From Saccharofermentans sp. (lineage in GTDB: Bacteria; Bacillota; Clostridia; Saccharofermentanales; Saccharofermentanaceae), in assembly GCA_024684815.1 (NCBI GenBank), contig JAIKWL010000068.1, positions 1-54,711 on the forward strand: 54,711 nt of DNA. Reading direction: 5' to 3'. Both the position numbers and the translations under genes were made by a program. This document shows, in pieces, positions 15,984-34,348 of this stretch. The notes below the pieces were generated by a model. That model was not told where the DNA came from, did not search any database, and saw only the letters and a program-made list of their open reading frames with translations. Numbering within the stretch: the stretch's first letter is position 1; each line of letters starts with the position of its first letter.

Positions 15984-15986
15984 CAA

Positions 15987-17042: not shown

Positions 17043-18022
17043 TAACTCTTCCTGAAGATCCGTGCTATTCTCCATAACACAGAGATAACATAATGGTCGA
17101 AAGCCATTCCCAGATAAAATAACCAAGACCATAATCTGTTATTTATACCTGTAGTGTCTGCCAAACGTCCGGCAATGTTATTGCTGTATTTTCCGCTATC
17201 CTCCAGATAATGTGAATAACGCCCGTCTTTAATTAAATGCCGGTTTGCATAAAGATCTCTTATATGTCCGAATTCCCTGGATTTAGTTGCAAATCTGAAA
17301 CCAAACCGTGGACTTTTGTCATTTAAGACATCCTGAAGTATCATTGCTTCGATAATAAGCAATTCACATTGAGTCGATGAATGCATAATGCTTTCATCTC
17401 TTTGAGTGTATTCAAATGTTACTTTTGAATCGTCTTTGCACTTTCCCTGCTTAAGGATAGTATAAACAAGTCCGGTATCATCACTGAACCTGTCGAGTAA
17501 TAATTCCGGATCAAACTTGCGGAAAACAAAACACGAAATATGGTAATAGTCAAAATGGCCCCAGAATAAAAACGTATTAATCACTTCAGGAATATGTTCT
17601 TCCGGACTGTTTGTATATCTGAAACCCGATACATATGAAGAATAATCTTTGTGGGCATCTAAAAAACTGACAGCATCACTGAACTTCGAATTATCACAAA
17701 ACACATCATCGGCACTCAGGATAGCGCAGTATTCACCAGTCGCCATCGATAAAGCTTTCTTTATGATCGATGACACTCTGAAACTCGGAACTGTTTTTTC
17801 TGAGGGTTTAGGTCTTTGCATGACAAAATGAGAAACAGAAATACCTGAGTCTGTCAACTGACTCTCAATCTGACTGATAAGTTCTATCGAACCATCAGAT
17901 GAACCGTCATCACCGATAATGATCTCAATTTCATCTGCCGACTGAGAAGTGATCGAATCGATCGCACGCCGGATATAGTTTTTCTCATTATAAGAAATGA
18001 CTATCGCTGTGATCTTACTCAT
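17042..18022 (-). CDS. Family 2 glycosyltransferase
   Basis: 326 residues with the GT2 core ITAIVISYNEKNYIRRAIDS, IGDDGSSDGS and the acidic ILSADDVF. An AAGGGG site precedes ATG. The C-terminal third is Tyr/Arg-rich and ends in a weak amphipathic segment (LWSWLFYLGMAFDHYVISVL) that may touch the membrane. It shares one base with the next gene's start. Confidence 0.85.
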   Translation of the reverse strand: MSKITAIVISYNEKNYIRRAIDSITSQSADEIEIIIGDDGSSDGSIELISQIESQLTDSGISVSHFVMQRPKPSEKTVPSFRVSSIIKKALSMATGEYCAILSADDVFCDNSKFSDAVSFLDAHKDYSSYVSGFRYTNSPEEHIPEVINTFLFWGHFDYYHISCFVFRKFDPELLLDRFSDDTGLVYTILKQGKCKDDSKVTFEYTQRDESIMHSSTQCELLIIEAMILQDVLNDKSPRFGFRFATKSREFGHIRDLYANRHLIKDGRYSHYLEDSGKYSNNIAGRLADTTGINNRLWSWLFYLGMAFDHYVISVLWRIARIFRKS

Positions 18023-18048
18023 TCAACCTGCCCCTTTATCAGCACTGT

Positions 18049-19059
18049 TTAAATATATTTCCGTGTGCATTTTTCAAGCTTATTTCCGAATACTTTCAAG
18101 ACCTTTCCAAAGTATAATGGAAACATCCACTTGATCACATAAAGCATTTTAAAACCAAACCCTGACTCTCTGTATCTGACGGTATCAACATATAAAGGTT
18201 CACACAATTTCAGATGAGGTGACTGACAGACGCTCCAGTCTTTATTTCTGTTGTCAAAAAGGAACCTGATCGAATCATAGCATTTGATAAAACATTGTTT
18301 TTTCATCTTAGGAAGTACACGCTTTGATTCCTGATAAACCAGGAGATTAATATAATTCTTCTCAAATTCCGTACGCCTGTTCCATGAACTGTCACTGATC
18401 TGCCTGTATACACTCATTACTTCAGGTGTATATATAACCCTTCCCGTTTTGATGAAATATGCAGTAATCAGATTATCATCAAAGAAATCCTTATTGATCG
18501 AATTGACCAGATCATGATCACTGTTCCTGAACATAAATGTCTGAACATGAGACCATAGACACCCCCAATAATTTTTATTTGACACTGAAAACATCTTATC
18601 GGAATACCTGCTCCACAGACCATCCTGCTTTTCTTTATCAAGTTTTAAAGCTACAGGATGAAAACAGGCTGACGCATCCGGAAACCGCTCCAGGATCTCG
18701 TATTGCTTCTGAAGTTTTTGATCATCACTATAATAGTCATCACCATCAAGGAAGCATAAATACCGGCCTTTAGCGTTACGCAGAAGGTTGATCCTGTTAT
18801 TTGATGCCCTGACGATAGGCTCGCTGCCTGACAAGGACAGTTTGTCTGTCTGATACACGCTGATAACATCAGGATATTGCTGTTCCCATTTCAACAGCTC
18901 TTCATAAGTGCCGTCGGTCGAGCAATCATCTCCGCATAGTATTTCGAACGGGAAATCGGCTTTTTGACTCAGGACAGAAGACAGGCAATCATTAATATAT
19001 TGCTTTTGATTAAAGAAAGTAATCATCACAGATACCCGGCAATCATTATCCGTGTTCAT
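18049..19059 (-). CDS. Family 2 glycosyltransferase
   Basis: 336 residues from the ATG at 19059; the frame is open to 19080 but GGTGG sits seven bases before the inner ATG. Motifs are VSVMITFFNQKQYIND, CGDDCSTDGTYEE and FLDGDDYYSDD. It overlaps the upstream gene by 14 bases. It is closest in look to the 15000 gene product. Confidence 0.83.
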   Translation of the reverse strand: MNTDNDCRVSVMITFFNQKQYINDCLSSVLSQKADFPFEILCGDDCSTDGTYEELLKWEQQYPDVISVYQTDKLSLSGSEPIVRASNNRINLLRNAKGRYLCFLDGDDYYSDDQKLQKQYEILERFPDASACFHPVALKLDKEKQDGLWSRYSDKMFSVSNKNYWGCLWSHVQTFMFRNSDHDLVNSINKDFFDDNLITAYFIKTGRVIYTPEVMSVYRQISDSSWNRRTEFEKNYINLLVYQESKRVLPKMKKQCFIKCYDSIRFLFDNRNKDWSVCQSPHLKLCEPLYVDTVRYRESGFGFKMLYVIKWMFPLYFGKVLKVFGNKLEKCTRKYI

Positions 19060-20008
19060 AATCATTCCACCATTTTCCACAACCGGAAATGTCTTCAGAA
19101 GACATCCGCGGATCGAATCTGAATTTTACTACTTTCTTAAAACCGCCCTTTTGCATATTCTTAACAAGACGTTTTTTACTGTTACTGCCAGAATTCATTT
19201 TAGTCAATGCATTTGATATCTGGATCTGGAACGGATCCTTATTCTCTTTATTAATGATCAGCAATTCAGCTTCTCTCAGATCCTTAAGGAAACGGTCTCT
19301 CCATTTATTGTCACTTGATGTGGATACACCGCACCCGAATTCATAAAAGATGCAGGGTTTGGAATAATAAGCCGGAACTATTCCGTCGAACATCATAAGC
19401 ATATATGAAAGATCTTCAGAATAAATTACCTTACCGGTCACGATATTTAAGTATTCCAAAAACAACGATCTGTCGCAAAGAATTGCAGCTCCTAAAGGAA
19501 GATCTTCCAACACAATGTAATTCCACCTGCAGACAGGATCATTGCCTTCCAAATAGCAGTCTATGACTCTCGGAGCAAGAGGAGTACTGTTGATCTTTAT
19601 GCTGCCTTCAATAGAACCGTAATAAACAGCATCAGCGAAGGACCAGGACTTTCCGCTGTCTTCAAGAAATCTTATCCATTCGGCCAGCGCAGACTCGTTA
19701 AAGAGCGCATCTCCGGGACTGATCAATTTTATATATTTGCCTTTCGCGGCAGATATTCCGTCATAATAATTCTTAACCGTACCCTGATTCTCTTTGTGAT
19801 CTATCAGTCTGTAATCGGTAGAACCCTTGCTTTCAAAGTATTCGGAAAACCTTCCAAACAAATTATCGGCAGAACCGTCATCGACAATGATCAATTCAAG
19901 TCTGACTCCTTTTTGCCCGACAACAGAATCAAGCGTAAAGACACACTTCTCCCACACTGGATTGTAGGTAGCCATAATAACTGACACTTCAAAAACAATG
20001 TTGTTCAA
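19046..20008 (-). CDS. Family 2 glycosyltransferase
   Basis: 320 residues. The start is TTG at 20008 with AGGAG six bases upstream. Core motifs: VSVIMATYNPVWEKCVFTLD, VDDGSADNLF and KLISPGDALF, the latter standing in for the usual DxD, which is weakened to PGD. That change may reduce metal binding or mark a variant. Its 3-prime end overlaps the next gene. Confidence 0.8.
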   Translation of the reverse strand: MNNIVFEVSVIMATYNPVWEKCVFTLDSVVGQKGVRLELIIVDDGSADNLFGRFSEYFESKGSTDYRLIDHKENQGTVKNYYDGISAAKGKYIKLISPGDALFNESALAEWIRFLEDSGKSWSFADAVYYGSIEGSIKINSTPLAPRVIDCYLEGNDPVCRWNYIVLEDLPLGAAILCDRSLFLEYLNIVTGKVIYSEDLSYMLMMFDGIVPAYYSKPCIFYEFGCGVSTSSDNKWRDRFLKDLREAELLIINKENKDPFQIQISNALTKMNSGSNSKKRLVKNMQKGGFKKVVKFRFDPRMSSEDISGCGKWWNDYEHG

Positions 20009-20032
20009 ATCTGTCTCCTGAAAAATGAACTT

Positions 20033-20920
20033 TTACTTATAATACTCAATTTCAGGTTTAAACACAGATCCCTCACGATATGAATTAAGTATAATCCGTA
20101 TCTTTTCCAGTCTGGATTCTTTCGCCCTGAATAAAACTCTTGTCAGATGCAAGCCTACTCTAATGAATAAATACAGTCTACCTTTAAGACCTTCACGTCT
20201 GTATATGTAGACTTCGTTTCTGTACAGACATTTATACCGCGAAAATCTGTCTTCCTCATCATGTTCTATTCCGACTTTGTCATTACTTTTCATATTATGG
20301 ATAACTATGCTTCCGTTCACGGCATAACACGGATACTCCAACGATAAACGCCTGGAATACTCAATGTCATCTGCCCAGATAAAGAATTCCTTTATAGGCA
20401 GACCTATTTGTTTAACAGTTTCAGCTTTAACAAAAAAAGAAACAAATGTAGCCATTATTACCGGAACAGTAGCAGATGTGTGATCAGTAATTGTTTTCTT
20501 AAGGCCCGTTTTCTGGAGGTTCATCTTACAGAGACTGCCGTCAGTCCATTTGGCAATACCGGACAGGAAACCGTATTTACCCTCAAGTTCACGGTCAGCA
20601 TCAAGAAATGCGGATAAACTGTCCGGTTCGGGAACAGCATCATCATCCATTAACCAAAGAAACTTATAACCACGCTTTAATGCCTCAGTCATACCAAAAT
20701 GGAAGCCACCGGCACCACCCGTATTTGTTCCGGTATTACAGTATATGATCTTATTTGAATCAATATATGAAATCAAAGCATCACCGGTACCGTCTGTACT
20801 GGCATTATCAATTACAAGAACGTCACACTTAGCGTTCCGCAGCAACAGCAAATGCTCTATGCATTCCAAAAGCATTTCTTTCCTGTTATAAGTTACTACG
20901 ATTGCAACAACTTCATTCAT
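20033..20920 (-). CDS. Family 2 glycosyltransferase, rhamnosyl/galactofuranosyl-transferase-like
   Basis: 295 residues, first gene of the cluster. Motifs AIVVTYNRKEMLLECIEHLL, DNASTDGTGD, NTGGAGGFHFGM and LWLMDDDAVP are typical of the GT2 subgroup containing rhamnosyltransferases and GlfT2-like galactofuranosyltransferases. It may add the first or a deoxy sugar. An extended -10 box lies about 50 bases upstream. No strong Shine-Dalgarno is seen before the ATG. Confidence 0.85.
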   Translation of the reverse strand: MNEVVAIVVTYNRKEMLLECIEHLLLLRNAKCDVLVIDNASTDGTGDALISYIDSNKIIYCNTGTNTGGAGGFHFGMTEALKRGYKFLWLMDDDAVPEPDSLSAFLDADRELEGKYGFLSGIAKWTDGSLCKMNLQKTGLKKTITDHTSATVPVIMATFVSFFVKAETVKQIGLPIKEFFIWADDIEYSRRLSLEYPCYAVNGSIVIHNMKSNDKVGIEHDEEDRFSRYKCLYRNEVYIYRREGLKGRLYLFIRVGLHLTRVLFRAKESRLEKIRIILNSYREGSVFKPEIEYYK

Positions 20921-21744: not shown

Positions 21745-22809
21745 ATGACTTTTGAACAACTGATGGATTATGCTATTTCCCGTGACTGTTCCGATGTGCA
21801 TATTACCCAGGGTACCAACCTTGCTGTAAGAAGATACGGAATGCTTCACATCCTTGACGAACGCCCCACACCTGAAGAAGCACGCGACATGATCTACGAT
21901 ATTCTCTCAACAGACGAGATCAAGCGCGTTGAAGCAGGCGAGGACGTTGATATCGGCCGCATGATCGACAACGAAATCAGAGTAAGAGCTAATGTTTATC
22001 ATCAGCGTAATAACCTTGCATGCAGCATCCGTCTTCTTATGGCCGAGATCCCCGAGTTCGAAGCTTTGGGCCTTCCTGACGTGATCAAGACACTCGCATC
22101 TGCCAATAACGGTATCATCCTTGTTACAGGACCTACGGGTTCAGGCAAGACGACCACTCTTTCTGCTATTGTTGACTACATCAACAAGAATGAGGCAAAG
22201 CACGTTATCACGATCGAAGATCCTATCGAGTATATCTATCCTCATAACCGTGCCATGATCCATCAGCGTGAAGTCGGACGTGACGTAAGTTCATTCGCTT
22301 ATGCTCTCCATTCAGCTCTGCGTGAAGACCCGGATATCATTCTCGTCGGCGAGATGAGAGATTTCGAGACGATCTCGGCAGCTATCACAGCAGCAGAGAC
22401 AGGACACCTCGTCCTTTCAACACTCCACACACAGAGTGCTGCCCAGACCATCAACAGGATCATCGACGGTGCTCCGATGGACATGCAGGCAACGATCCGT
22501 TCACAGTTTGCCGCAAGTATCCGCGGCGTTATCTCACAGCAGCTCCTGCCTACCACTGACGGCAACGGACGCGTCCTTACCACAGAGATCATGGTCGGAA
22601 CAAGTGCTATCAAGAGCCTTATCCTTGAAGATAAGATCCAGATGATCCCGGGTGCCATCCAGTCTGCTGCTCAGGTAGGTATGCACACCTTGAACAACGA
22701 TCTCCAGAGACTCGTTACGATGGGTCTCATCACAAGAAGGACCGCGATCGATGCAGCTTACGATCCCAACGAACTCGAGAAGATGATCGGCGTAACAAAT
22801 TACTTCTGA
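21745..22809 (+). CDS. pilT: PilT-type twitching motility ATPase
   Basis: 354 residues, full length for PilT. Walker A is GPTGSGKTTT at about 129, Walker B LVGEMRD near 200-206, with the PilT family His box (STLHTQSAAQTINRIID). The N-terminal DVHIT segment and the C-terminal region fit PilT rather than PilB. PilT powers retraction of type IV pili. No other pilus gene is in the window, so it either serves a remote pilus locus or works with another secretion-type machine. A strong terminator follows, so it is monocistronic. Confidence 0.88.
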   Translation: MTFEQLMDYAISRDCSDVHITQGTNLAVRRYGMLHILDERPTPEEARDMIYDILSTDEIKRVEAGEDVDIGRMIDNEIRVRANVYHQRNNLACSIRLLMAEIPEFEALGLPDVIKTLASANNGIILVTGPTGSGKTTTLSAIVDYINKNEAKHVITIEDPIEYIYPHNRAMIHQREVGRDVSSFAYALHSALREDPDIILVGEMRDFETISAAITAAETGHLVLSTLHTQSAAQTINRIIDGAPMDMQATIRSQFAASIRGVISQQLLPTTDGNGRVLTTEIMVGTSAIKSLILEDKIQMIPGAIQSAAQVGMHTLNNDLQRLVTMGLITRRTAIDAAYDPNELEKMIGVTNYF

Positions 22810-22984: not shown

Positions 22985-24307
22985 ATGAATTTAATCAGAG
23001 TTCTTTACATAGATCCCGGAACGGGAGGAATGCTGTTCACGATACTGTTCGGTATTTTCGGTGTGGCAGTATTCTCGTTCCGTGCGCTGATAATGAAACT
23101 TAAATTCCGTATAAGCGGCGGTAAAAGTGCAAAGATCAACGATCAGAAGATCCCGGTCGCTATCTTTACCGATCACAAAAGATACTGGAATGTTTTCGAG
23201 CCCATAATGGACGAACTGGAAAAAAGAAAACAGAAAACTGTTTATCTCACGTGCTCCAAAGACGATCCCGCTTTCAACAAAAAATACGAATACATTACCT
23301 GTGAGTTCCTTGGTGAAGGCAACAAAGCTTTCAGCAAACTTAATCTCCTTAATGCATCAGTAGTCGTATCTTCAACACCGAGTCTTGACGTTTTCCAGTG
23401 GAAGCGCTCGAAAAACGTCAACTATTATATTCATGTTCAGCATGCCGCCAATGACATTTCAATGTACCGCATGTTCGGTACGGACCACTTTGATGCGATC
23501 CTTCTTTCGGGTGAATATCAGGTTGATGAGATCAGACAGCTGGAGAAGATGCGCGACATCAAACCCCGTGAACTGCCTCTTGTCGGCATCCCCTATATGG
23601 ATGTGATGAAAAAGAGACTGGATGCGGCAGGTCCCGTACCTCCACACGAGAGAACTGTACTTATGGCTCCTTCCTGGGGCGCGAGCGGAATTCTTTCGAG
23701 GTTCGGCGAAAAACTCATAGATGCCCTTATCTCAACAGGGTACAAGGTGATCGTAAGACCTCACCCGCAGTCTTATTCTTCCGAGAAGGATATGCTGGAA
23801 AAGCTTATGTCCAAATACACTGATGAATCCAAGGTCATCTGGAATAAGGATAATGATAACTTTGAAGTATTGAGACAGGCTGATATCCTGATATCTGATT
23901 TCTCAGGCATAATCTTCGATTTCACTCTTGTCTTCGACAAGCCGCTGATCTATACGGACACAAAGTACGATATCCGTCCCTATGATGCTTCCTGGATCGA
24001 GGAAACGCCCTGGACGTTCAGGATCCTTCCCTCTTTGGGACTTGAACTCAATGAGGATAACGTCAGTGATATCAAAGATCTTATCGACAGATGTATTGAG
24101 GATCCTTCTTTTGCCGAAGGCAGAAACAAAGCCCGTGCTGAGACCTGGGTCCCGATGGGGGTTGGTGCCGTGAACACCGTTGATTTCATAATGGAAAAAT
24201 ATAACGAAGTCGTTGCAAAAAATGCTGCCGGAGAACTTGAGAAGACCGGTGCCGGAACCTCGGCACGCGGCCGCAGGAAGACTCAAGCAGCAGGAAAAGA
24301 GGCCTGA
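22985..24307 (+). CDS. CDP-glycerol glycerophosphotransferase-like enzyme, copy A
   Basis: 440 residues. The N-terminal YIDPGTGGMLFTILFGIFGV segment plus the next few residues form one membrane anchor (about 8-35), a feature shared by clostridial members. The rest matches the TagB/TagF family: IHVQHAA near 153 stands where the family has its catalytic His, then LMAPSWG, VIVRPHPQS near 260 (second His) and ISDFSGIIFDF near 302. These enzymes transfer glycerol-phosphate (or ribitol-phosphate) from CDP-polyol to lipid-linked wall polymer. The C-terminal 35 residues are Lys/Ala/Gly rich. It is followed five bases later by the YidC-sulfatase fusion, and the pair recurs as copy B. Confidence 0.82.
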   Translation: MNLIRVLYIDPGTGGMLFTILFGIFGVAVFSFRALIMKLKFRISGGKSAKINDQKIPVAIFTDHKRYWNVFEPIMDELEKRKQKTVYLTCSKDDPAFNKKYEYITCEFLGEGNKAFSKLNLLNASVVVSSTPSLDVFQWKRSKNVNYYIHVQHAANDISMYRMFGTDHFDAILLSGEYQVDEIRQLEKMRDIKPRELPLVGIPYMDVMKKRLDAAGPVPPHERTVLMAPSWGASGILSRFGEKLIDALISTGYKVIVRPHPQSYSSEKDMLEKLMSKYTDESKVIWNKDNDNFEVLRQADILISDFSGIIFDFTLVFDKPLIYTDTKYDIRPYDASWIEETPWTFRILPSLGLELNEDNVSDIKDLIDRCIEDPSFAEGRNKARAETWVPMGVGAVNTVDFIMEKYNEVVAKNAAGELEKTGAGTSARGRRKTQAAGKEA

Positions 24308-24312
24308 TAAAA

Positions 24313-27084
24313 ATGTCGATCCTCTCATTCCTTTACACATTCATAATCACTCCGTTAGAACTTCTTTTTGAAGTGATATTTACTGTTGCAAATAAGATCA
24401 TCGGCAACGCGGGTCTTGCGATAATCTTTCTGAGCCTTGCCGTCAATTTCCTTGTCCTTCCGCTCTATAAACGTGCTGATGAACTGCAGGCTGAAGAACG
24501 AGATATACAGGCAAAGATGGCTCCCCGCTTAAAGCACATAAAGAGCACTTTTAAAGGTGACGAGCGTTTCCTGATGCTCCAGGAGTATTACCGCATCAAT
24601 CACTATAAACCGATATATGCACTTAAGAGTTCTGTATCGCTGTTACTGCAGATACCGTTCTTCATCGCCGCATATAATCTTTTGTCCGGAATGCAAAGCC
24701 TTCAGGGAATGCACTTCGGTTTTATCTCCGACTTAGGCAAAGAAGATGCAATGTTCATGATCGGGAGTTTCCCCGTAAATGTCCTTCCTATACTGATGAC
24801 CCTGATCAATATCGTTTCAGGGATCATATATACAAAAGGTCATCCTTTGAGGGCAAAGATACAGGTCTACGGACTTGCGGCCATATTCCTCGTTCTGCTC
24901 TATCATTCACCTGCCGGTCTTGTTTTCTACTGGCTTTTGAATAATGTCTTCTCGCTAGTAAAGAATATCTTCTATAAGCTTAAGAACCCCAAAAAAGTGT
25001 TAAGTGTCGTGCTTGCGGTTTCAGGCGCTGCGGTTCTTATACTGACACTTATAAGGCCTGACCTCAACTTAAGGCAGAAGATCCTTCTTGCAGCAGGTGC
25101 AGTATTGCTTGCCCTCCCTCTTGTTTTCGAAATGACCGGAACCAGATCGGCACAAAAGCCTGTGGCAAAGGCAACTTCCAAAGACAGGCTGTTCTTCCTG
25201 GGAGGAGCCGTGCTCATGGCTTTCATAACGGGACTTCTTATTCCTTCGGCTATCGTCAATGCTTCGCCTGCTGAATTTATTGACGTTATGCACCCTTATA
25301 ATCCTGTGCTTTATATCATCAATTCAATGCTTTTGGCATTCGGCAGCTGGGTATTGTGGGGCGGTGTTTTCTACTTCTTCATGAACGATAAGATCAAATC
25401 CTTATTCTGTAAGGGAATATGGATGATCTGCGGCATATCCGTCACGGATCACCTTCTGTTCGGCACTAAGCTCGGCAATCTGTCATCGACTCTTCAGTAT
25501 GATCTGACACCTTCGTTCTCGCTGCCCGAATACATTATCAATATCATCGCGGTCATAGTTGTAGCCGCAGTCTTCTATATTGCATACAAACTGATCCCGA
25601 AGATATCCGGAACTGTTCTTATCGTCGGGCTCCTGACTGTCATGGGTATCGGAGCATATAACTCCGCACAGGTATGGCGCACATATCTCTGGTATCAGAG
25701 CAGTACAAATCCTTCGTCAGAGATGCCTGTTATCCCCTTGAGCAGGAACGGCAAAAATGTGGTCGTGCTGATGCTCGACCGAGCCATGGGAACACAGACG
25801 CCTTATATCTTTAACGAAAAGCCTGAATTACTGGAACAGTTCGACGGCTTTACTTACTATCCGAACACCATATCTTACGGTTCTTATACCAATTTCGGCG
25901 CACCTGTCCTTTACGGCGGTTATGAATACACACCGGTCGAAATGAATGCAAGATCTGATGAGAAACTTGAAGATAAACATAATGAAGCTCTTAAGGTCAT
26001 GCCTGTCCTCTTCGGAGAGAACGGATATACGGTAACCATCTGCGACCCTTCCTATGCCGGATATAAGACGATCCCTGACCTGTCTGTATTTGACGATCAT
26101 CCGGAATTTAACTGCTATAACACCATGGGCAGATTCAACTACTTTGATGATGATTCCAACAGCGAAACTTCATTAAAGCTTTCTTCGCGCACAAATGAGA
26201 TCCGCAACCGCAACTTCTTCTGTTATTCGCTTATGAGGATCTCTCCAGTCCTTCTGCAGGAAACGATATATGACGGCGGCCTTTACAACGAGTCGAATGC
26301 TTCTGAGAACGTTGACGGAATTAATATATCCGTCGTTCAGGATATAGACGGCATCTCGAAGAGTACAGGTTACCGCAAGTTCTTCCTTGAATCATATACC
26401 GTGCTCACAAAACTTAGTGACATCACTTCCATTCTCGACAATGATGATAATACATTCCTTATGATGTCCAACGATACGACCCACTCGCCCTGTCTGTTGC
26501 AGGAGCCGGACTACGTTCCCGCGATGAATGTCGACAATACTCAATATGATACTGATATGGTCTCAAGGTTTACGATCGACGGAGTTACGATGCAGATGAC
26601 GACCGAAGATCAGGTGACCCACTATCAGGTAAATATGGCAGCTTATATCAAGCTCGGCGAATGGTTCGATTATTTGCGCGAAAACGGTGTCTACGACAAC
26701 ACCAGGATAATTCTGGTCGCCGATCACGGACGTGACCTCGGCCAGTTTAACGTAATGTGCAATAATGAGGATATGGAATTCTTTATGCCGCTTCTGATGG
26801 TCAAGGATTTCGGTTCCTCCGGATTTACTGTATCCGAAGAATTCATGACGAACGGAGATACACCTTCACTTGCAGCATCAGGCCTGATCAACGATCCTTT
26901 GAATCCCTTCACCGGAAAACCGCTGGATTCAAATACCAAGACCGGTCCGCAGCAGGTTCTCTTATCCAACAAGATCGATGTGGACGAGAACAACGGATAC
27001 AGGTTCCTTCCCGGTTCATGGTTCGCATTTGAAGGCGAAGATCCGCATGATCCGGCAAACTGGACTTACATTGGTGAAGGGTAA
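24313..27084 (+). CDS. YidC/Oxa1-like domain fused to LtaS/sulfatase-type domain, copy A
   Basis: 923 residues. About 1-240 follow the YidC/Oxa1 fold: AGLAIIFLSLAVNFLVLPLY, a charged cytoplasmic loop, VSLLLQIPFFIAAYNLLSG, and SPAGLVFYWLLNNVFSLV. The Arg that lines the insertase groove (the R in IVRxxxxPL) is Asn45. About 230-480 hold six or so further membrane helices. About 480-923 form an outer alkaline-phosphatase-superfamily domain like LtaS: VVVLMLDRAMG with metal ligand Asp489, YTNFGAPVLYGG with probable nucleophile Thr526, THSPC with His724, and VADHGRD with Asp804-His805. LtaS moves glycerol-phosphate from phosphatidylglycerol onto a polymer; here the partner gene suggests a related phospho-polymer reaction. 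I know no described family with this architecture. Confidence 0.8.
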   Translation: MSILSFLYTFIITPLELLFEVIFTVANKIIGNAGLAIIFLSLAVNFLVLPLYKRADELQAEERDIQAKMAPRLKHIKSTFKGDERFLMLQEYYRINHYKPIYALKSSVSLLLQIPFFIAAYNLLSGMQSLQGMHFGFISDLGKEDAMFMIGSFPVNVLPILMTLINIVSGIIYTKGHPLRAKIQVYGLAAIFLVLLYHSPAGLVFYWLLNNVFSLVKNIFYKLKNPKKVLSVVLAVSGAAVLILTLIRPDLNLRQKILLAAGAVLLALPLVFEMTGTRSAQKPVAKATSKDRLFFLGGAVLMAFITGLLIPSAIVNASPAEFIDVMHPYNPVLYIINSMLLAFGSWVLWGGVFYFFMNDKIKSLFCKGIWMICGISVTDHLLFGTKLGNLSSTLQYDLTPSFSLPEYIINIIAVIVVAAVFYIAYKLIPKISGTVLIVGLLTVMGIGAYNSAQVWRTYLWYQSSTNPSSEMPVIPLSRNGKNVVVLMLDRAMGTQTPYIFNEKPELLEQFDGFTYYPNTISYGSYTNFGAPVLYGGYEYTPVEMNARSDEKLEDKHNEALKVMPVLFGENGYTVTICDPSYAGYKTIPDLSVFDDHPEFNCYNTMGRFNYFDDDSNSETSLKLSSRTNEIRNRNFFCYSLMRISPVLLQETIYDGGLYNESNASENVDGINISVVQDIDGISKSTGYRKFFLESYTVLTKLSDITSILDNDDNTFLMMSNDTTHSPCLLQEPDYVPAMNVDNTQYDTDMVSRFTIDGVTMQMTTEDQVTHYQVNMAAYIKLGEWFDYLRENGVYDNTRIILVADHGRDLGQFNVMCNNEDMEFFMPLLMVKDFGSSGFTVSEEFMTNGDTPSLAASGLINDPLNPFTGKPLDSNTKTGPQQVLLSNKIDVDENNGYRFLPGSWFAFEGEDPHDPANWTYIGEG

Positions 27085-27123
27085 AGGAAAGCACAACCAG
27101 AATCTATTACGGGGAAATAACAG

Positions 27124-28440
27124 GTGGAAATTACTAAGTTGTTATACATAGATCCCGGAACGGGAGGAATGCTGTTTACCGTACTGTTCGGTATCTTTGG
27201 CGTGCTTGCCTTTTCTTTGCGCAGCCTTTTCATGAAATTGAAGTATTCCTCGGCAGGCAAACAGAATGCCAGGATCAGCAGCACCAAGATCCCGGTCGTT
27301 ATCTTTAATGAGCACAAGAGATATTGGAACATCTTTGAACCCATTATGGATGAGCTCGACAAAAATGATATCCCGATAACCTATATGACCTGTTCTGAGG
27401 ATGATCCGGCATTTAAACGGAAATTTAAAAACATAAACTGTGAATACATCGGAGAAGGCAACAAAGCTTTTTCCAGATTAAATCTCCTGAACGCTAATGT
27501 TGTTTTCGCGACCACGCCGAGCCTCGACGTTTTCCAGTGGAAGAGATCGAAGTATGTAGACTGCTATATCCACATCATGCACGCGGCAAAGGATCTCACT
27601 ATGTACAGAATGTACGGCACTGATCATTACGATGCTTTCATACTCGGCGGTGAATATCAGGAAAAACAGGCACGCCAGATGGAAGAGATGCGCGGCATCA
27701 AGCCCAGAGATATCGCGCTCTGCGGGGTTCCGTATTTGGATGTGATGAAGAAAAGAGTTGAAGATGCCGGCGAGGTGCCGCCCCATGACAGGACTGTTCT
27801 TCTGGCACCTTCCTGGGGAGAAAGCGGAATACTGACCAGATTCGGAGACAGACTGATAGATGCACTGATCTCAACAGGATACACAATAATAGTAAGACCT
27901 CATCCTCAGTCATTCGCCTCCGAGAAGGATATGCTCGAAAAGCTCATGGCTAAATACAATGATCCTTCAAAGGTTGAATGGAACAGAGATACAGACAACT
28001 TTGAAGTGCTCAGAAGATCCGATGTGCTGATATCGGATTATTCCGCCGTAATGTTTGAATTCGCCATGGTATTCAATAAACCCGTTATCTACACGGACAC
28101 TAAGTTTGATATCAGACCATATGACGCAGACTGGATCGATGAAGTGCCCTGGACATTCAGGATCCTTCCTGATCTCGGAATAGAACTTAATGAATCCAAC
28201 GTAAATGATATCAGGAATGTCATCGACAGATGTATTGAAGATCCTTCCTTTACAACAGGCAGAGAAAAAGCCCGCCGTGACACATGGGTGCACATAGGCG
28301 AGAGCGCCAAAAGATCTTCCGATTTTATAATCAAAAAGTACCATGATACGGTTTCAGACAACATCTCGGAAGAGCAAAAGACAGACACGGATAACAGAAA
28401 AAACAATAAGAGAATTCGTTTGGCAAACAGCAGAGGTTGA
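27124..28440 (+). CDS. CDP-glycerol glycerophosphotransferase-like enzyme, copy B
   Basis: 438 residues, start GTG with GGGG upstream. It is a clear tandem paralogue of the 22985 product: the same YIDPGTGGMLFTVLFGIFGV anchor, the core segments YRMYGTDHYDAFILGGEYQ, LLAPSWGESG, IIVRPHPQS and LISDYSAVMFEFAMVF, and the same DIRPYDADWIDEVPWTFRIL block. Catalytic histidines are kept. The tail differs from copy A. It starts 39 bases after the copy A fusion gene, with no terminator visible between, so both units are probably one operon. Confidence 0.82.
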   Translation: MEITKLLYIDPGTGGMLFTVLFGIFGVLAFSLRSLFMKLKYSSAGKQNARISSTKIPVVIFNEHKRYWNIFEPIMDELDKNDIPITYMTCSEDDPAFKRKFKNINCEYIGEGNKAFSRLNLLNANVVFATTPSLDVFQWKRSKYVDCYIHIMHAAKDLTMYRMYGTDHYDAFILGGEYQEKQARQMEEMRGIKPRDIALCGVPYLDVMKKRVEDAGEVPPHDRTVLLAPSWGESGILTRFGDRLIDALISTGYTIIVRPHPQSFASEKDMLEKLMAKYNDPSKVEWNRDTDNFEVLRRSDVLISDYSAVMFEFAMVFNKPVIYTDTKFDIRPYDADWIDEVPWTFRILPDLGIELNESNVNDIRNVIDRCIEDPSFTTGREKARRDTWVHIGESAKRSSDFIIKKYHDTVSDNISEEQKTDTDNRKNNKRIRLANSRG

Positions 28441-28446
28441 CCGGGA

Positions 28447-31215
28447 ATGACTTTTTTATCAGGACTTTACACTTTAATAATCTCGCCTCTGGTACTTCTC
28501 TTTGAAGTCATATTTACCATTGCCGACAGACTTATCGGAAATGCGGGATTATCCATCATCGTCTTAAGTCTTGCAGTTAATTTTCTGGTCCTCCCTCTGT
28601 ATAAACGTGCTGATGAACTTCAGGCCGAAGAACGCGATATCCAGGCAAAGATGGCCTACAGGATCAAAAGGACCAAGCAGACATTCAAAGGCGACGAGCG
28701 CTTCTTCATGCTCCAGGAGTATTACCGCATCAATAACTATAAACCGGTATATGCTCTTAAGAGTTCTGTCTCTCTCCTTCTTCAGATACCGTTCTTCATT
28801 GCCGCATACAGGCTCCTTTCAGGCATGCAGAGCCTTCAGGGCGTACAGTTTGGTCTTATCCGCGACCTCGGAAAAGAAGATGCGGCATTCATGATCGGTA
28901 ACTTCCCGGTTAATATCCTTCCGGTACTCATGACGCTCATCAACATAATTTCAGGCATAATCTACACGAAAGGACATCCCCTTAAATCAAAGATACAGGT
29001 CTACGGTCTTGCCGTGGTCTTCCTCGTACTGCTCTACCATTCACCTTCCGGACTCGTTTTCTACTGGCTGCTGAACAACGTGTTCTCTCTGGTAAAAAAT
29101 ATCTTCTATAAACTTAAGGACCCTAAAAAAGCACTTGGCATCATCCTTGCCGCTGCCGGTGCTGTAATACTGGTCATCACGATAATCAGGCCTGATCTCG
29201 GTATAAGACAGAAAGTCCTTCTCGGGCTGTTCTGCATCCTGCTTGCACTCCCGCTGGTATCCGTTCTTATCAAGAATAAAGCAAAACCGGTATCAGATAC
29301 TGTACCCGGGAAAGCAGATAAGACACTGTTCTTTTCCGGAGCATTTCTTATGGCTTTGGTTACGGGACTGTTCATACCATCTGTCATAATAAACGCTTCC
29401 ACAGAGGAATTCATAAATGTAATCGATCCTTCCTCACCCCTCATCTATATCGCCCGTTCCCTGCTCTTATCTTTGGGGAGCTGGGTGCTTTGGGGCGGTG
29501 TCTTTTTCGCTTTTTCGAAAGGCAGGACCAGACAGATATTCAGCATGGCAATGCCTGTGATCTGCGGGATCGCGATAATCGATTATATGCTGTTCGGGAC
29601 AGATCTCGGAAATCTTTCATCGGTACTTCAGTATGACACTCAGCCGGCATTCAGCGTATATGATCATCTGTTCAATCTGCTGGCAGTCGCTTTAATTGCA
29701 CTCATCTGCATATTCCTTTATTTGAAAGTCCGCCAGGCAACAAAGATCCTGATCCTGGCAGGTATATTGTCAATAACGGGAATAGGCATATATAACGTTT
29801 CGAAGATAAACTATACATATTCATGGTACGAGAACACAAATGATGTTACTGATGAGATGCTGAATATTCCGCTGAACAGAAACGGCAGGAATGTTATAGT
29901 CCTTTTTCTCGACCGTGCCCTGGGAACGCAGGTGCCATATATCTTCAATGAAAAACCTGAGTTATTGGAAAAATACGAAGGCTTTACTTACTATCCGAAC
30001 ACCATTTCATACGGGCCAAAGACCAATTTTGCATCCCCTGCTTTGTACGGAGGTTATGAATATACTCCCGGCAGGATAAACGAAAGGTCAGACGAAAGCC
30101 TGACAGAAAAGCAAAATGAAGCATTGAAAGTCATGCCCGTGATCTTCGGGAATAACGGATTCGACGTAACCGTCTGCAACCCTAAATATGCAGGTTATAA
30201 ATGGATTCCGGATCTTTCAATTTATGATGACTATCCTGACTTCCACTGCTATAACACCAACGGACAGTTCGGCTTCACATTCGACGGTGCCGGCACTATG
30301 TCATCGCTGGAGATATACGGGAAGATAGATGAGATACGTTACCGCAATTTCTTCTGCTTCTCCCTTATGAAGATATCGCCTCTGCTCCTTCAGGAAACTC
30401 TCTATGACGGCGGTATGTACAACAGAGCTGCTTCCGCATCAGCTTCCCCTGAAACATCTGTGCTGACACAGACCTTTGACGGTGTCTCCAAAAGCACCGG
30501 TTACAACATTTTATTCATTGAGTCTTATCCTGTCCTCACAAGTCTTTCTGATGTCACGACGATCAGCGACAGCTCGGAAGACACATTCCTCATGATGTCC
30601 AACGATACTCCTCATTCCCCGTGCATACTTCAGGAACCTGACTATGTTCCTGCAATGAACGTTGATAACACAGCTTTCGACACCGATATGGTCTCAAGAT
30701 ATACGGTTGACGGGAAAACAATGAAAATGGAAAGTGTTGCGCAGGTAGCCCATTATCATGTAAATATGGCAACATTCCTGAAACTTGGTGAATGGTTCGA
30801 TTATCTGCGCGAGAACGGAGTCTACGACAACACCAGGATAATCCTTGTCGCCGATCACGGAAGAGACCTTGGCCAGTTCGATATATACTGCAATGGCCAG
30901 AACATGGAGTGTTTCCTGCCGCTTCTGATGGTAAAGGATTTCGATTCGACAGGATTTGCCGTATCAGATGATTTTATGACCAACGGGGACGTTCCCTTGC
31001 TGGCAACTGCAGGACTTATCGATGATCCGGTAAACCCGTTTACGGGCAATCCCATCACCGACAGCGCGAAAACAGGTCCTCAGACTGTCTATTATTCACC
31101 GGGATCCACAGCACAGGATAACGACAGGAACACGTTTCTGCCCGGTTCATGGTTCGTATTTGAGGGCGAAGATCCGCATGATCCCTCTAACTGGAAATAT
31201 GTCGGCGAAGGGTAA
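28447..31215 (+). CDS. YidC/Oxa1-like domain fused to LtaS/sulfatase-type domain, copy B
   Basis: 922 residues, same architecture and almost the same length as copy A. LYKRADELQAEERDIQAKMA is identical in both. The groove position is again Asn45. Metal and catalytic candidates are kept at matching positions: Asp489 (LFLDRALG), Thr526 (KTNFASPALYGG), His723 (PHSPC), Asp803-His804 (ADHGRD). Divergence is concentrated in the membrane region at about 240-480 and in surface loops around 590-690, as expected if the copies act on different polymers or partners. The last residues WFVFEGEDPHDPSNWKYVGEG mirror copy A. Confidence 0.8.
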   Translation: MTFLSGLYTLIISPLVLLFEVIFTIADRLIGNAGLSIIVLSLAVNFLVLPLYKRADELQAEERDIQAKMAYRIKRTKQTFKGDERFFMLQEYYRINNYKPVYALKSSVSLLLQIPFFIAAYRLLSGMQSLQGVQFGLIRDLGKEDAAFMIGNFPVNILPVLMTLINIISGIIYTKGHPLKSKIQVYGLAVVFLVLLYHSPSGLVFYWLLNNVFSLVKNIFYKLKDPKKALGIILAAAGAVILVITIIRPDLGIRQKVLLGLFCILLALPLVSVLIKNKAKPVSDTVPGKADKTLFFSGAFLMALVTGLFIPSVIINASTEEFINVIDPSSPLIYIARSLLLSLGSWVLWGGVFFAFSKGRTRQIFSMAMPVICGIAIIDYMLFGTDLGNLSSVLQYDTQPAFSVYDHLFNLLAVALIALICIFLYLKVRQATKILILAGILSITGIGIYNVSKINYTYSWYENTNDVTDEMLNIPLNRNGRNVIVLFLDRALGTQVPYIFNEKPELLEKYEGFTYYPNTISYGPKTNFASPALYGGYEYTPGRINERSDESLTEKQNEALKVMPVIFGNNGFDVTVCNPKYAGYKWIPDLSIYDDYPDFHCYNTNGQFGFTFDGAGTMSSLEIYGKIDEIRYRNFFCFSLMKISPLLLQETLYDGGMYNRAASASASPETSVLTQTFDGVSKSTGYNILFIESYPVLTSLSDVTTISDSSEDTFLMMSNDTPHSPCILQEPDYVPAMNVDNTAFDTDMVSRYTVDGKTMKMESVAQVAHYHVNMATFLKLGEWFDYLRENGVYDNTRIILVADHGRDLGQFDIYCNGQNMECFLPLLMVKDFDSTGFAVSDDFMTNGDVPLLATAGLIDDPVNPFTGNPITDSAKTGPQTVYYSPGSTAQDNDRNTFLPGSWFVFEGEDPHDPSNWKYVGEG

Positions 31216-31257
31216 CTAAAGTCACCCTTACGTAATAATTGCCTCTTAAATAGGGTG

Positions 31258-31263
31258 TATACT
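31258..31263 (+). promoter_or_regulatory. Candidate -10 box before the 31318 gene
   Basis: TATACT sits about 55 bases before the chosen start, outside any gene. An imperfect 22-base inverted repeat around the copy B stop (31208-31229) may partly end the preceding transcript. Confidence 0.4.
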
Positions 31264-31317
31264 ATAGAGATAATATCAACTGCTCTTGATTTATACATAC
31301 CTGGAGGGGATAGCAAG

Positions 31318-32703
31318 ATGTATATTGATTCAAATAGATCCCGTTACAAGAGGGCTGTGGGAGCACTGACTGCACTCTTGTGTCTTGTTCTGATACCCAT
31401 GATCAGTCTGGCTTCAGGATTCGGTTCATCCCGTGAAGTGGACATGACCGGATTTGCGACGGATCTCGCTTTTTATGCAGGAGCTTTCTCGACTGCAGTT
31501 ACAGCTTCAGTCAATCCTTCTGCCACAATGGCTGTTCTTGCTATTCTCGGGTCGATAGAAAATGCCGCAGTTTATTCTCCGGATTCCGCTTTCCTGACAA
31601 GCGTTGCTGATTTTCTGAACGGAGTACCCATTTTAAGAGAGATCGGCAAACTCCCGATAGCAAATCCCTATGCTGCCGTCTTTTTAAGTCTGGTGGCAGC
31701 TGCCCTGATAGTTCTACACTCATTTGCAGAGTCAAAAATGGTATCCGAGGCAACTATCGATAAACTCGATAAATATATCGGCTATATCTGTACAGTGGCA
31801 ATATCACTTTTGCCGTTCGTAACCACGGAAGCATTGGAAGCGGATCCGCCGGGAGTTAAAACCGGCGCTTTAATGATGCGCACTGCAGGATTGCTCGGAA
31901 AAGCTGATTTTGATGTCGGAACACCCGGGCTTCATACGTATCTTCTTGCAGGGATCACGGTAATAGCCATTACGATCTTTTATAACTGCATATATTCCTG
32001 CATGGATGACTGGGAAGTCATCGTTGCCGCCATACCGGTCAAGGGTACGAGTTTTATCTGGCAGATAATCAAGGGTATCCTTCACATTATTCTTGTTCTT
32101 CTCCAGATATTTGCTCCCGTCATCAGCCTGATCGTATCCATTCATCTGGCAATAGCAGGACTGTTCCTGTTCAGGATACTTAAGAGAAATGCTCAGTATT
32201 ACAAGGATGTATATGTTTTCACTGTGCTCCGCAGGATATTCAAACGCAACGATCCTATTCCCAGGATCGAAGATCACGTTCCCGGAAGACTTAAAAGGCT
32301 TTATCCGTCTATGGAGATCGCCATGTCTGTATATACCTTCCACGGTGTTGCACGGCTTCCGAAACGCTCCAGAGTTTGGCTCATCAAAGACGGTGATAAA
32401 GTCGATCTTGTTTACAAGCGTCTCATAAGAAAACCTTATATCATCTCCTGGACTGAGCTTTCAGAAAAACACGAAGGCAAACCTTTTTATCTTGAGCAAT
32501 GCGCAAGATTCTTAAAGATACGTACGGAAGACTGCAAACTCGAACTGGTCATGTCATCACGTTACAGAGCGGATATCCCTATGCTGTCTCAATTGCTGGA
32601 TCTTAAGGATTTCGCTCCGGTAAAACAGGAGATCAAAGAAAACAAAAAGCTAAACCGTAAACTCCGCCGCAAAAAGAACAAAACCGCGGCAGATACGGTC
32701 TGA
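31318..32703 (+). CDS. Polytopic membrane protein of unknown function
   Basis: The start at 31318 has GGAGGGG eight to ten bases upstream; the frame is open to 31255. The 461-residue product has a cleavable-looking N-terminal helix, then about six further membrane segments between residues 40 and 310 (for example AVFLSLVAAALIVLHSF, TYLLAGITVIAITIFYNCIY, IILVLLQIFAPVISLIVSIHLAIAGL) and a basic cytoplasmic C-terminal part (about 315-461) ending in a Lys-rich tail. The middle part looks like DUF4126-type membrane proteins, but I am not certain. It lies between the glycerophosphotransferase/fusion pairs and the LCP ligase, so a role in the same envelope pathway is plausible. Confidence 0.65.
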   Translation: MYIDSNRSRYKRAVGALTALLCLVLIPMISLASGFGSSREVDMTGFATDLAFYAGAFSTAVTASVNPSATMAVLAILGSIENAAVYSPDSAFLTSVADFLNGVPILREIGKLPIANPYAAVFLSLVAAALIVLHSFAESKMVSEATIDKLDKYIGYICTVAISLLPFVTTEALEADPPGVKTGALMMRTAGLLGKADFDVGTPGLHTYLLAGITVIAITIFYNCIYSCMDDWEVIVAAIPVKGTSFIWQIIKGILHIILVLLQIFAPVISLIVSIHLAIAGLFLFRILKRNAQYYKDVYVFTVLRRIFKRNDPIPRIEDHVPGRLKRLYPSMEIAMSVYTFHGVARLPKRSRVWLIKDGDKVDLVYKRLIRKPYIISWTELSEKHEGKPFYLEQCARFLKIRTEDCKLELVMSSRYRADIPMLSQLLDLKDFAPVKQEIKENKKLNRKLRRKKNKTAADTV

Positions 32704-32731: not shown

Positions 32732-34348
32732 ATGAAACACACATTTGAAAAAATAAGGATCGAACAGGAAAGGAAAGCCAGAGAGAAAAAACAAAAACGC
32801 AGATGGAGAACGTTCGCAGGCATCCTTCTCATTCTGCAGACTATAGCTTCAGGTTATTTATTTCAGAAGGCTTTCGCTCTCGATATGTTGCCGGGCAGAC
32901 TGATATTTGCTCTCGGCGGCATTTTATTCATACTTCTGGCCGTTAATTATCTGCTCTATTTTGCCGGTGCCAATAAGACCGGTGCCAGAACCTTCCGCCG
33001 TTTCATTGCGATCCTTCTGACCTTAACTATCTGCACAGGAGCAGTCTACGTCGGAAACGTCATGGGCAAAGTAAATACCACGGTCAAGCAGATCACACTG
33101 ACTGAAAAAGAGAACTATGCCGCAGTCATGGATATATATGTACTGGCCAAAGATCCCGCAGCAGATATTGCAGGCTGCAAAGACTATCCTTTCGGAGTAT
33201 CAGGCGGCAACGACGGTCCCGCTTCTTATGCAGCCGTAACAAAGATCAACTCTGAAACAGGAGCGCAGATCAATGCCAAGGATTATCCTTCTTCAACGCA
33301 ATTAGCAGGCGCTCTTTACAGCGGTGAGGTAAAGGCTGTCATTATAAACCACAACTATGTTGATATTCTCGGAGAGACAGACGAATTCGCAAATTTCGAA
33401 GACAATACCAGACTTGTTGAAACGGTAAATATCACACCTGAAGAACTGGCTCAGGCCGAATCTTCCAATCCGTTTACGGCAGCTCATTCAGACGATAAAC
33501 CGGTCGATATCGAGCCGGCAACATCAAAGGTCGCCAGCGTTGAGTTAGAACCATTCATTGTCTACATAAGCGGTTCAGATACGAGAGACAAAATGTTCCA
33601 GATATCAAGAAGCGACGTCAATATCCTGATGGCCGTTAATCCGCAGACAAAGCAGATCCTCCTGCTCAATACTCCAAGAGACTACTATGTTCCCAATCCG
33701 AGAAGCAGTTACGGCACAAAAGATAAGCTGACACATCTCGGTATCTATGGTGTTGACTGCTCTATCACAGGACTTGAGGATCTTTATGGTTGTGATATCA
33801 ACTACTACGTTCAGATCAACTTTACGGGCACAGAGACACTGATAGACGATCTGGGAGGTATTACTATCAATAATCCCCAGTCCTTCAGAGCAAGGGGCTA
33901 TTCGTTCCCGTCAGGGGAGATCACTCTTAACGGTCCTCAGGCTGTGGTCTATGCAAGGGAGCGCTATGCATTCGCATCGGGCGATAATATGCGCGGTCAG
34001 AACCAGATGCGCCTTATCACCGCCATCATCAAAAAACTTACCTCTCCCAATACGGCTCTTATCCTGAACTATCATGCGATCCTTTCTGATCTTGAAGGAT
34101 TCATCGTTACCAATATGGAATCGGAAGAGATAGAGAATCTTGTAAAGATGCAGTTAAACGACCTGGCAACATGGAATATCAAGACATATGCCGCTACGGG
34201 TTACGGCGGATACGACACAACATACTCAATGCCGGGAACCAATCTCTATGTAACTTATCCTTATATGAGCACAGTAGAAAAAGGCAGCGGACTGGTCGAT
34301 AAAGTATTAACAGGCGGGATCCTGACTGACGAAGATGTCGCGGATTAA
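32732..34348 (+). CDS. LytR-CpsA-Psr (LCP) family wall-polymer ligase
   Basis: 538 residues. Three membrane helices lie in the first 115 residues after a Lys/Arg-rich cytoplasmic start. An accessory outer domain (about 120-270) precedes the LCP catalytic domain (about 275-470), shown by YISGSDTR, RSDVNILMAVNP, LLNTPRDYYV, KLTHLGIYG, GGITINN and YARERYAFASGDNMRGQNQM with the conserved Arg/Asp residues that hold the pyrophosphate lipid. LCP enzymes attach teichoic acids or capsule to peptidoglycan. Its position as the last gene of the plus-strand run, followed by a terminator, suggests it links the product of the duplicated polymer enzymes to the wall. Confidence 0.88.
   Translation: MKHTFEKIRIEQERKAREKKQKRRWRTFAGILLILQTIASGYLFQKAFALDMLPGRLIFALGGILFILLAVNYLLYFAGANKTGARTFRRFIAILLTLTICTGAVYVGNVMGKVNTTVKQITLTEKENYAAVMDIYVLAKDPAADIAGCKDYPFGVSGGNDGPASYAAVTKINSETGAQINAKDYPSSTQLAGALYSGEVKAVIINHNYVDILGETDEFANFEDNTRLVETVNITPEELAQAESSNPFTAAHSDDKPVDIEPATSKVASVELEPFIVYISGSDTRDKMFQISRSDVNILMAVNPQTKQILLLNTPRDYYVPNPRSSYGTKDKLTHLGIYGVDCSITGLEDLYGCDINYYVQINFTGTETLIDDLGGITINNPQSFRARGYSFPSGEITLNGPQAVVYARERYAFASGDNMRGQNQMRLITAIIKKLTSPNTALILNYHAILSDLEGFIVTNMESEEIENLVKMQLNDLATWNIKTYAATGYGGYDTTYSMPGTNLYVTYPYMSTVEKGSGLVDKVLTGGILTDEDVAD

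Follow-up and report, generated by a model that had tools for sequence, protein, structure and literature searches.

Phosphocholine on gut bacteria matters for host recognition. The PptA/EptA-type phosphotransferases belong to the alkaline phosphatase (AlkP) superfamily, and GacH/SccH and LtaS combine membrane helices with an outer domain of this superfamily, as does the fusion protein discussed here; we know of no YidC module in any of these enzymes, of no dedicated cytidine diphosphate (CDP)-dependent loader for PptA/EptA and of no PF04464 partner for GacH/SccH and LtaS. In the Lic-1 (LicABCD) system, a choline kinase, a cytidylyltransferase and a choline transporter supply CDP-choline for surface glycans, and the enzyme described for placing phosphocholine on glycans is LicD; pilin receives phosphocholine by way of PptA, for which a donor of the phosphatidylcholine kind is named (PMC10434233). 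The Pnt pathway with PntC comprises a phosphoenolpyruvate (PEP) mutase-cytidylyltransferase fusion, phosphonopyruvate decarboxylase and 2-aminoethylphosphonate (AEP) transaminase and provides cytidine monophosphate (CMP)-phosphonate for the cell surface; its CMP activation step is settled, while the steps after PEP mutase are described as enigmatic (PMC6697681). Knowledge of how phosphonates come to be placed on bacterial surfaces is still partial. Here we discuss a two-gene unit that occurs twice in a 54,711-nucleotide stretch of Saccharofermentans sp. DNA (GenBank assembly GCA_024684815.1, contig JAIKWL010000068.1, positions 1 to 54,711; "the window" refers to this whole stretch). It consists of a PF04464 transferase (GPT) and a fusion protein (FUS) in which a YidC-like module is joined to an AlkP-type domain. 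On balance, GPT and FUS probably form a transbilayer relay that decorates a glycan of the cell surface with small phospho- or phosphono-head groups. The pair is widespread and offers a concrete candidate for the step in which phosphonates and phosphocholine are transferred.

The first unit comprises GPT1 (22985..24307, + strand; 440 residues), in which a membrane helix with the motif YIDPGTG is followed by the PF04464 transferase, and FUS1 (24313..27084, + strand; 923 residues), a single protein with a YidC-like module, membrane helices and a predicted outer AlkP-superfamily domain. Along FUS1, residues 1-225 (24313..24987, + strand) form the YidC/Oxa1-like module, with Asn in place of the groove arginine. 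Residues 226-470 (24988..25722, + strand) hold about seven more membrane helices, judged by hydropathy peaks, and constitute the least conserved of the FUS regions (mean pairwise identity 0.344), while residues 471-923 (25723..27081, + strand) correspond to the putative outer domain of the LtaS/sulfatase type, with D489, T526, H724, D804 and H805. The second unit consists of GPT2 (27124..28440, + strand; 438 residues, GTG start, PF04464) and FUS2 (28447..31215, + strand; 922 residues), again a YidC-7TM-AlkP fusion. GPT and FUS are separated by 5 bases in the first unit and 6 in the second, and the tandem arrangement at 22985-27084 and 27124-31215 described in the first-pass annotation is confirmed in its open reading frames (ORFs), lengths and spacing. 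Both GPT1 and GPT2, and FUS1 and FUS2, are 65% identical; within FUS the identity is 84% for the YidC part, 45% for the membrane linker and 67% for the AlkP part.

Both GPTs match PF04464 above the Pfam cut-off (GPT1 3.4e-14, GPT2 2.7e-15), and YIDPGTG, H153 and RPHPQ (258-262) are invariant in all 64 of the 64 aligned GPTs. Compared with PDB profiles, the GPT profile matches Cps3D (8qoy, 1.4e-07) and TarL (8va1, 0.0011). The equivalog models for TarF (NF041712), TarB (NF041711) and TarL (NF041713) give the GPTs 13.6-22.5 bits, and their cut-offs of 500-1000 are not reached. We propose that GPT would act as the loader of a cytidylyl-activated head group. A further PF04464 protein occurs together with a LicD-family protein in a separate glycan cluster of the same genome (contig C76; L091 6302-11893). 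Elsewhere a CAAX-protease-like membrane protein separates GPT from FUS or is found close to the genome's third unit (L044 9378-9986, L047 3278-3964, L089 16088-17335); PF02517 was matched in L044 and L089, and the protein in L047 was judged by eye.

In the outer part of FUS, D489, T526, H724, D804 and H805 are invariant in 105/105 aligned full-length fusions, which were picked by BLAST to FUS1 and of which a few come from overlapping stretches and are possibly counted twice. Asp489, Thr526 and an Asp-His pair near 804 had been noticed before as conserved catalytic positions, to which H724 is now added; by analogy with LtaS and AlkP-superfamily transferases, we take the five residues to be metal ligands and the catalytic threonine. 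The Sulfatase family PF00884 matches FUS1 (4.9e-05, 23.2 bits) and FUS2 (2.5e-04, 20.9 bits) under the curated cut-off of 25, and copy 1 scored 26.3 bits in the genome-wide search. With the LtaS equivalog NF053595, FUS1 obtained 18 bits against a cut-off of 970, and FUS2 was not among the matches listed. A FUS profile search returned weak matches to sulfatases, phosphonate monoester hydrolase and LtaS. Based on the conserved residue set, the weak profile matches and the match to stand-alone AlkP relatives (see below), residues 471-923 are predicted to be an AlkP-superfamily domain, and the spread of positive charge between the hydrophobic peaks is consistent with its being outside. The PF00884 search of the window's own genome did not list the third fusion, and other LtaS-type enzymes might escape it too. 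A sulfatase match on contig C49 of this genome is, judged by eye, a phosphopentomutase-like protein.

Relatives at 43-78% identity are present in 71 loci (the scan kept the best 80 of 176), which excludes chance. By title these loci are mostly from Clostridia, often ruminant-derived, and include metagenome-assembled genomes named Spirochaetales, Chloroflexi, Erysipelotrichaceae and Eggerthellaceae. Together they hold 112 FUS pieces and 61 GPTs, with seven FUS pieces in one locus. Within the order to which the window's genome belongs, the FUS profile matches 76/143 genomes, 70 of them strongly (E 1e-100 or better, the threshold for a FUS genome below); G006, G017, G021, G023, G024 and G101, with matches of 1e-11 to 1e-13, were set as FUS-negative. 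A GPT is found in 68/70 FUS genomes, and the window's own genome has three fusions, each paired with a GPT, and one ordinary YidC.

Does this pairing reflect a single pathway? Known PF04464 enzymes act on lipid-linked acceptors. The two proteins might decorate the same polymer independently, GPT loading a lipid-linked glycan inside and FUS using phosphatidylglycerol (PG) or phosphatidylethanolamine outside, in the way that SccH takes glycerol phosphate from PG (PMC11754754). Independent action would also agree with the 18/71 loci lacking a GPT in the ORF set, although L059 and L069 do have one and others are cut by contig ends (the overlap filter dropped genes in L059, L061 and L069). However, the gap in neighbouring GPT/FUS pairs is at most 20 nt in 53/71, and this tight spacing, together with a reciprocal YidC-GPT fusion that has an adjoining AlkP gene, points to one pathway; we consider independent action unlikely.

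The reciprocal architecture, YidC and PF04464 in one protein, was identified by Pfam in L093, L094, L095, L103 and L104. A separate AlkP gene follows YidC-GPT in L093, L094, L095, L145, L148 and L149 (the last cut by the contig end) and precedes it in L103. This neighbour matches Pfam Sulfatase above the cut-off in L093, L094 and L095 and below it in L103, and was recognized by BLAST in L145 and L148. An hhalign comparison of the stand-alone membrane-AlkP protein with the membrane-AlkP part of FUS covers 474 columns (99.1%, E 1.5e-18), and a YIDPATTTY helix starts 5/6 of the aligned stand-alone copies, being absent from L147. In L145 the order is LicC (opposite strand), LicA, LicB, YidC-GPT and AlkP; no choline-type neighbours of this kind were seen in L148 and L103. 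The YidC, GPT and AlkP modules hence swap fusion partners, often keeping the same kind of neighbours, and this swapping is the main reason to treat the three as one machine. Together with the tight GPT-FUS pairing, it supports the earlier proposal of one assembly system that joins a cytoplasmic and an outer transferase.

The YidC-like module belongs by sequence to the YidC/Oxa1/Alb3 family. PF02096 covers residues 34-221 above the cut-off (FUS1 3.1e-22, FUS2 4e-21), and the FUS YidC part matches the PDB profile of YidC (4utq, 1.6e-12). The module differs from the insertases in its groove, in its fusion to an enzyme and in being present besides ordinary YidC. At the groove-arginine position FUS has Asn (23/27) or Ser (4/27), compared with Arg in ordinary YidC of the order (26/26) and Lys in YidC-GPT (10/10), whereas a positive groove residue has been called strictly conserved in YidC (PMC8920935). 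Moreover, Y52, D56, E84, Y98, D145, K217 and N218 occur in 27/27 fusions, and Y98 is common to YidC-GPT. The groove change is a sign of altered function rather than proof of it.

A simpler role for the module would be that of a built-in insertase or chaperone, which helps the large outer enzyme or its partner into the membrane and takes no part in the chemistry. The clear YidC homology speaks for such a role, as does the fact that the E. coli groove arginine, R366, is dispensable if residue 517 is aromatic or polar (PMC8920935), because FUS has Trp at the matching position in a profile alignment. On the other hand, S. mutans YidC2 requires its arginine in spite of a Trp at the equivalent place (PMC8920935), and FUS combines the lack of the arginine with conserved residues of its own. 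An ordinary YidC, counted when the best match reached about 1e-31 in a frame of 320-410 residues, is present in 111/114 genomes searched (the exceptions being G096 and G104, with fusion-level best matches, and G131, with a weak match), which shows that FUS is not the housekeeping copy. In addition, YidC-GPT joins YidC to a cytoplasmic transferase, so that help with export cannot explain both architectures. We therefore regard a purely insertase role as improbable.

It is possible, and we put it forward tentatively, that a branch of the YidC/Oxa1 family left protein insertion and now serves to translocate phospho- or phosphono-head groups bound to lipids, fused either to the lipid-loading enzyme (YidC-GPT) or to the unloading enzyme (YidC-AlkP). 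If so, many Clostridia of gut and rumen would use GPT-FUS as a last step in decorating their surfaces with phosphonates and, without LicD, with phosphocholine, and lipid-linked head groups would be a second kind of cargo for the insertase family. A shared origin of the two YidC parts was also considered. In the YidC-domain tree FUS and YidC-GPT each form a clade (100/100 and 100/99, respectively), and the tree does not join them firmly (support 77/50, with long branches).

Clues to the head group come from the neighbouring genes. Clustering of neighbours beside GPT-FUS revealed LicC-like, LicA-like and LicB-like genes, or a BCCT choline transporter, and in the choline loci LicC-LicA-LicB or LicC-LicA-BCCT adjoins GPT-FUS. 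L056 has the order GPT-FUS-LicC-LicA-LicB, with all genes on one strand and nowhere more than 16 nt apart, L067 has FUS-LicC-LicA-LicB in a tight run on one strand, and in L036 FUS and the PilT-X482-LCP genes flank BCCT-LicC-LicA, which runs on the opposite strand. In genomes of the order, phosphonate genes occur in two arrangements. In the first (L105-L109 and L144), FUS is followed by a fusion of NTP_transf, CTP_transf_like and PEP mutase, an iron-dependent alcohol dehydrogenase (Fe-ADH), phosphonopyruvate decarboxylase and GPT; the families were checked on L105, and L106-L109 and L144 were assigned by BLAST. The Fe-ADH scores under the cut-off of the phosphonate Fe-ADH model, and its replacement of the transaminase presumably indicates hydroxyethylphosphonate. 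In the second (L139, L141, L142 and L143), GPT/FUS lies beside the decarboxylase, PEP mutase, AEP transaminase and a LicC/PntC-like protein, with families checked on L143 and the cytidylyltransferase checked by Pfam on L139 only. L140 resembles this arrangement, its PEP mutase being hidden by the ORF filter and present in the PEP-mutase search. By a strict rule, the 71 loci comprise eight with choline kinase and transporter, four with an NTP transferase-CobD-like fusion and one with PEP mutase. The second of these is an NTP transferase fused to a CobD-like pyridoxal phosphate enzyme (L055 12807-14633, on which the families were checked; also L046, L049 and L068); it might lead to a CDP-amino-alcohol, for instance CDP-ethanolamine or CDP-aminopropanol.

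Other neighbours bear on the carrier. A BacA/UppP gene adjoins YidC-GPT in L104, L146 and L147, which are close relatives, and a VTT-domain (VTT/DedA-type) gene directly follows GPT in the hydroxyethylphosphonate-type loci L105 (10081-10884), L106, L107, L109 and L144. We assume that these proteins belong to undecaprenyl/polyprenyl-phosphate traffic, and they thereby lend side support to a polyprenyl carrier.

The head-group link for GPT-FUS rests on genome data. Of the choline kinase hits, 24/39 are within 10 kb of a GPT or YidC-GPT, compared with 0.48 expected (maximum 5 in 20,000 simulations), and the same holds for 27/71 PEP-mutase hits, compared with 1.1 expected (maximum 8 in 20,000 simulations). 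Distances were taken start to start, to GPT and YidC-GPT only, from coordinates typed by hand with four YidC-GPT places added; of the 40 choline-kinase rows, one (G072:C46:2518, at a distance of about 55 kb from a GPT) was omitted, as were GPT matches not listed. In the GPT tree the neighbour labels taken together are clustered (20 changes versus a shuffled mean of 29.7, 0/200 as low), and the seven hydroxyethylphosphonate-type GPTs all fall on one side of a branch with support 93, five of them being near-copies and L144_12664 sitting on a long branch.

The association with choline and phosphonate genes could merely reflect shared ancestry or islands of surface-glycan genes and be uninformative about the substrate. 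Consistent with this, 66/69 PEP-mutase genomes belong to genera g1 and g5, where FUS is common, and 44/71 PEP-mutase hits are farther than 10 kb from any GPT, a distance that also counts against the relay. Yet adjacency is far above expectation for both kinds of gene, in different genera and with both architectures, and tight one-strand runs such as those in L056 and L067 likewise argue against mere ancestry, which we hold to be very unlikely.

As the names of PF04464 and of the LtaS-type domain suggest, the product might instead be a glycerol-phosphate, teichoic-acid-like polymer, with GPT using CDP-glycerol and the LtaS-like domain using PG. TagD, the CDP-glycerol enzyme, was found above the cut-off in 9/143 genomes of the order and is somewhat commoner in FUS genomes (8/70 versus 1/73 others). 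It is missing from 62/70 FUS genomes, however, and is never near a GPT (0/10 hits within 10 kb, 0.13 expected); the window's own assembly, which is 76% complete, has no TagD match at 1e-10. Sub-threshold matches to the TagD model do occur near GPTs; a single one, in L105, was examined and proved to be the cytidylyltransferase part of the PEP-mutase fusion. Glycerol phosphate, the unit suggested at first, thus gives way to choline phosphate and phosphonates, whose activation genes adjoin the pairs instead; a glycerol-phosphate polymer appears quite improbable.

The proposed relay would proceed as follows. CDP-choline, CMP-2-aminoethylphosphonate or CMP-hydroxyethylphosphonate would be synthesized in the cytoplasm, as the neighbouring genes suggest. 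The YIDPGTG helix may hold GPT at the membrane, where GPT would detach the head group from CMP and load it onto a membrane lipid, probably a polyprenol. The YidC-like module could then help the loaded head group to cross the membrane. Outside, judging from its invariant active site, the AlkP-type domain would take over the head group from the lipid via its catalytic threonine and transfer it to a hydroxyl of the glycan, in the manner of SccH with glycerol phosphate. The decorated polymer would then be anchored in the wall by LCP, as the gene order suggests. Where an array holds additional fusions, these may serve different acceptor positions with one shared loader. The modules, the conserved active sites, the pairing, the partner swapping and the head-group genes can be read from the sequences.

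Several observations weigh against the relay. Loading of a lipid, rather than directly of a glycan, and crossing of the membrane are inferred steps, and the neutral groove residue is compatible with insertase work, as discussed above. LicD-like phosphotransferases or glycosyltransferases have been reported near some phosphonate clusters (PMC6697681). By the strict rule, 58/71 loci have no head-group gene, although L066 and L072 among these carry LicA-like genes by clustering, and the GPT search of the 70 FUS genomes found no match in G048 and G086. At the genome level, PEP mutase occurs in 61/70 FUS genomes versus 8/73 others (44/48 versus 5/11 in the window's own genus), and PEP mutase or choline kinase in 67/70 versus 23/73, or in 80/85 versus 10/58 with YidC-GPT genomes included; because genomes that are related do not count as independent, the Fisher values overstate this co-occurrence, and adjacency carries more weight. 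For choline kinase by itself there is no genome-wide enrichment with FUS (19/70 versus 16/73, p 0.30). In the GPT tree the choline label is weakly clustered (9 changes versus 11.4 shuffled, 10/500 as low), as is the AEP label (3 versus 4.0, 18/500 as low), and the NTP transferase-CobD label is not clustered. In the window's own organism, the 76% complete assembly has no choline kinase match, the phosphonate genes lie on a contig other than the window's, and the LicD-family gene in another cluster would be a competing user of CDP-choline.

Which head group the two units use can be narrowed down with the GPT tree and the own assembly. GPT1 belongs to a starred set of five that includes the choline loci L020 and L023, and the third own GPT (contig C19) groups with two further choline loci, L098 and L097; the rows nearest to GPT2 carry no choline label. 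Contig C16 (L138 7993-12252) has a contiguous triple-fusion PEP mutase, Fe-ADH and phosphonopyruvate decarboxylase, with TIGR02320 matched at 397 bits and TIGR03297 at 460 bits in L138. The 669-residue fusion protein of L138 is 67% identical over its length to the NTP_transf, CTP_transf and PEP_mutase fusion of L105, and the organism probably makes hydroxyethylphosphonate. The likeliest head groups are hence phosphocholine, from the GPT tree, or hydroxyethylphosphonate, from the pathway in the same assembly. Choline-binding repeats, which also bind other things, are a suggestive marker of the choline link. They are found in 53/143 genomes, and choline kinase occurs in 5/8 genomes with at least 12 matches versus 30/135 of the others (p 0.02), the match counts being minimum values. 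Proteins with such repeats are greatly expanded in the own genome, which has at least 49 matches on many contigs (597 first-look candidates, 45 scored), and a choline-binding-repeat protein is near the third unit (L089 17633-18979).

The similarity of the two units raises the question of their age. In the GPT tree GPT2 is nearest to L017, apart from the set that holds GPT1, and in the YidC-domain tree FUS2 joins L012 (85/77) while FUS1 joins L022 (92/47) and L007 (95/91). Recent tandem duplication is rejected, as GPT1 and GPT2, and FUS1 and FUS2, group with genes of other species. The copies are old paralogues, and their placement fits two specificities better than recent duplication. Of the earlier suggestion that they give two polymers or a heterodimer, the first half agrees with the distinct places in the GPT tree; for a heterodimer there is no evidence, and the loci carry one to several fusions per GPT.

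Compared with the known systems, the choline loci resemble Lic-1 in their supply genes and differ in that no LicD was found among the nine flanking genes scanned beside GPT-FUS in L044, L056, L058 and L067 (LicD was not sought in the rest of those genomes); transfer would here fall to GPT and FUS. The components of GT-A/flippase/GT-C glycosylation belong to other protein families than GPT and FUS. The logic of that route (SccN-?-SccM), in which a lipid is loaded inside and flipped and transfer takes place outside (PMC11754754), is shared, with the differences that here a phospho-head group would be moved instead of a sugar and that FUS joins the crossing module and the transferase in one protein. 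SccH resembles the proposed pathway in acting on a wall glycan later attached by LCP, and differs from the proposed FUS in its donor, PG (PMC11754754). The phosphonate loci share their activation genes with the Pnt pathway, in the account of which the main text does not contain the terms "sulfatase", "membrane protein" or "alkaline phosphatase" (PMC6697681). In a literature search with most subscription journals outside its coverage, no YidC-sulfatase or YidC-PF04464 fusion was described, and PF02096 and PF00884 did not appear together, in keeping with the initial impression that the fusion is not part of a described family. Surface decoration with phosphocholine and phosphonates is an already known task, while the transfer machine fits no family tested, since each comparison fails on, or leaves open, some feature, the Pnt activation genes excepted.

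Some of the remaining genes around the units may also participate. The order GPT1-FUS1-GPT2-FUS2 is continued, all on the + strand, by a membrane protein of 482 residues (31255..32703) and an LCP glycopolymer transferase (CpsA-like; 32732..34348), which matches PF03816 (1.3e-35) and NF051849 (3.9e-92, with a score under that model's cut-off of 650 bits). An LCP ligase had been reported to follow the units; it is present, but it is not the immediate next gene, as the 482-residue protein intervenes. The latter has no match in a Pfam scan, is conserved between GPT-FUS units and LCP in relatives, has relatives in 10/71 loci by clustering of neighbour genes and is a candidate for a further part of the pathway. 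Immediately upstream of GPT1 is a gene for a PilT-type ATPase (21745-22809), a relative of which lies beside the units in 6/71 loci by clustering. Farther upstream, the - strand carries a glycan cluster (11482-20920) with a Wzx-like protein (sub-threshold), a deacetylase and six proteins containing GT2 domains, of which one also has a fused pyruvyl transferase domain; this cluster might possibly make the acceptor polymer.

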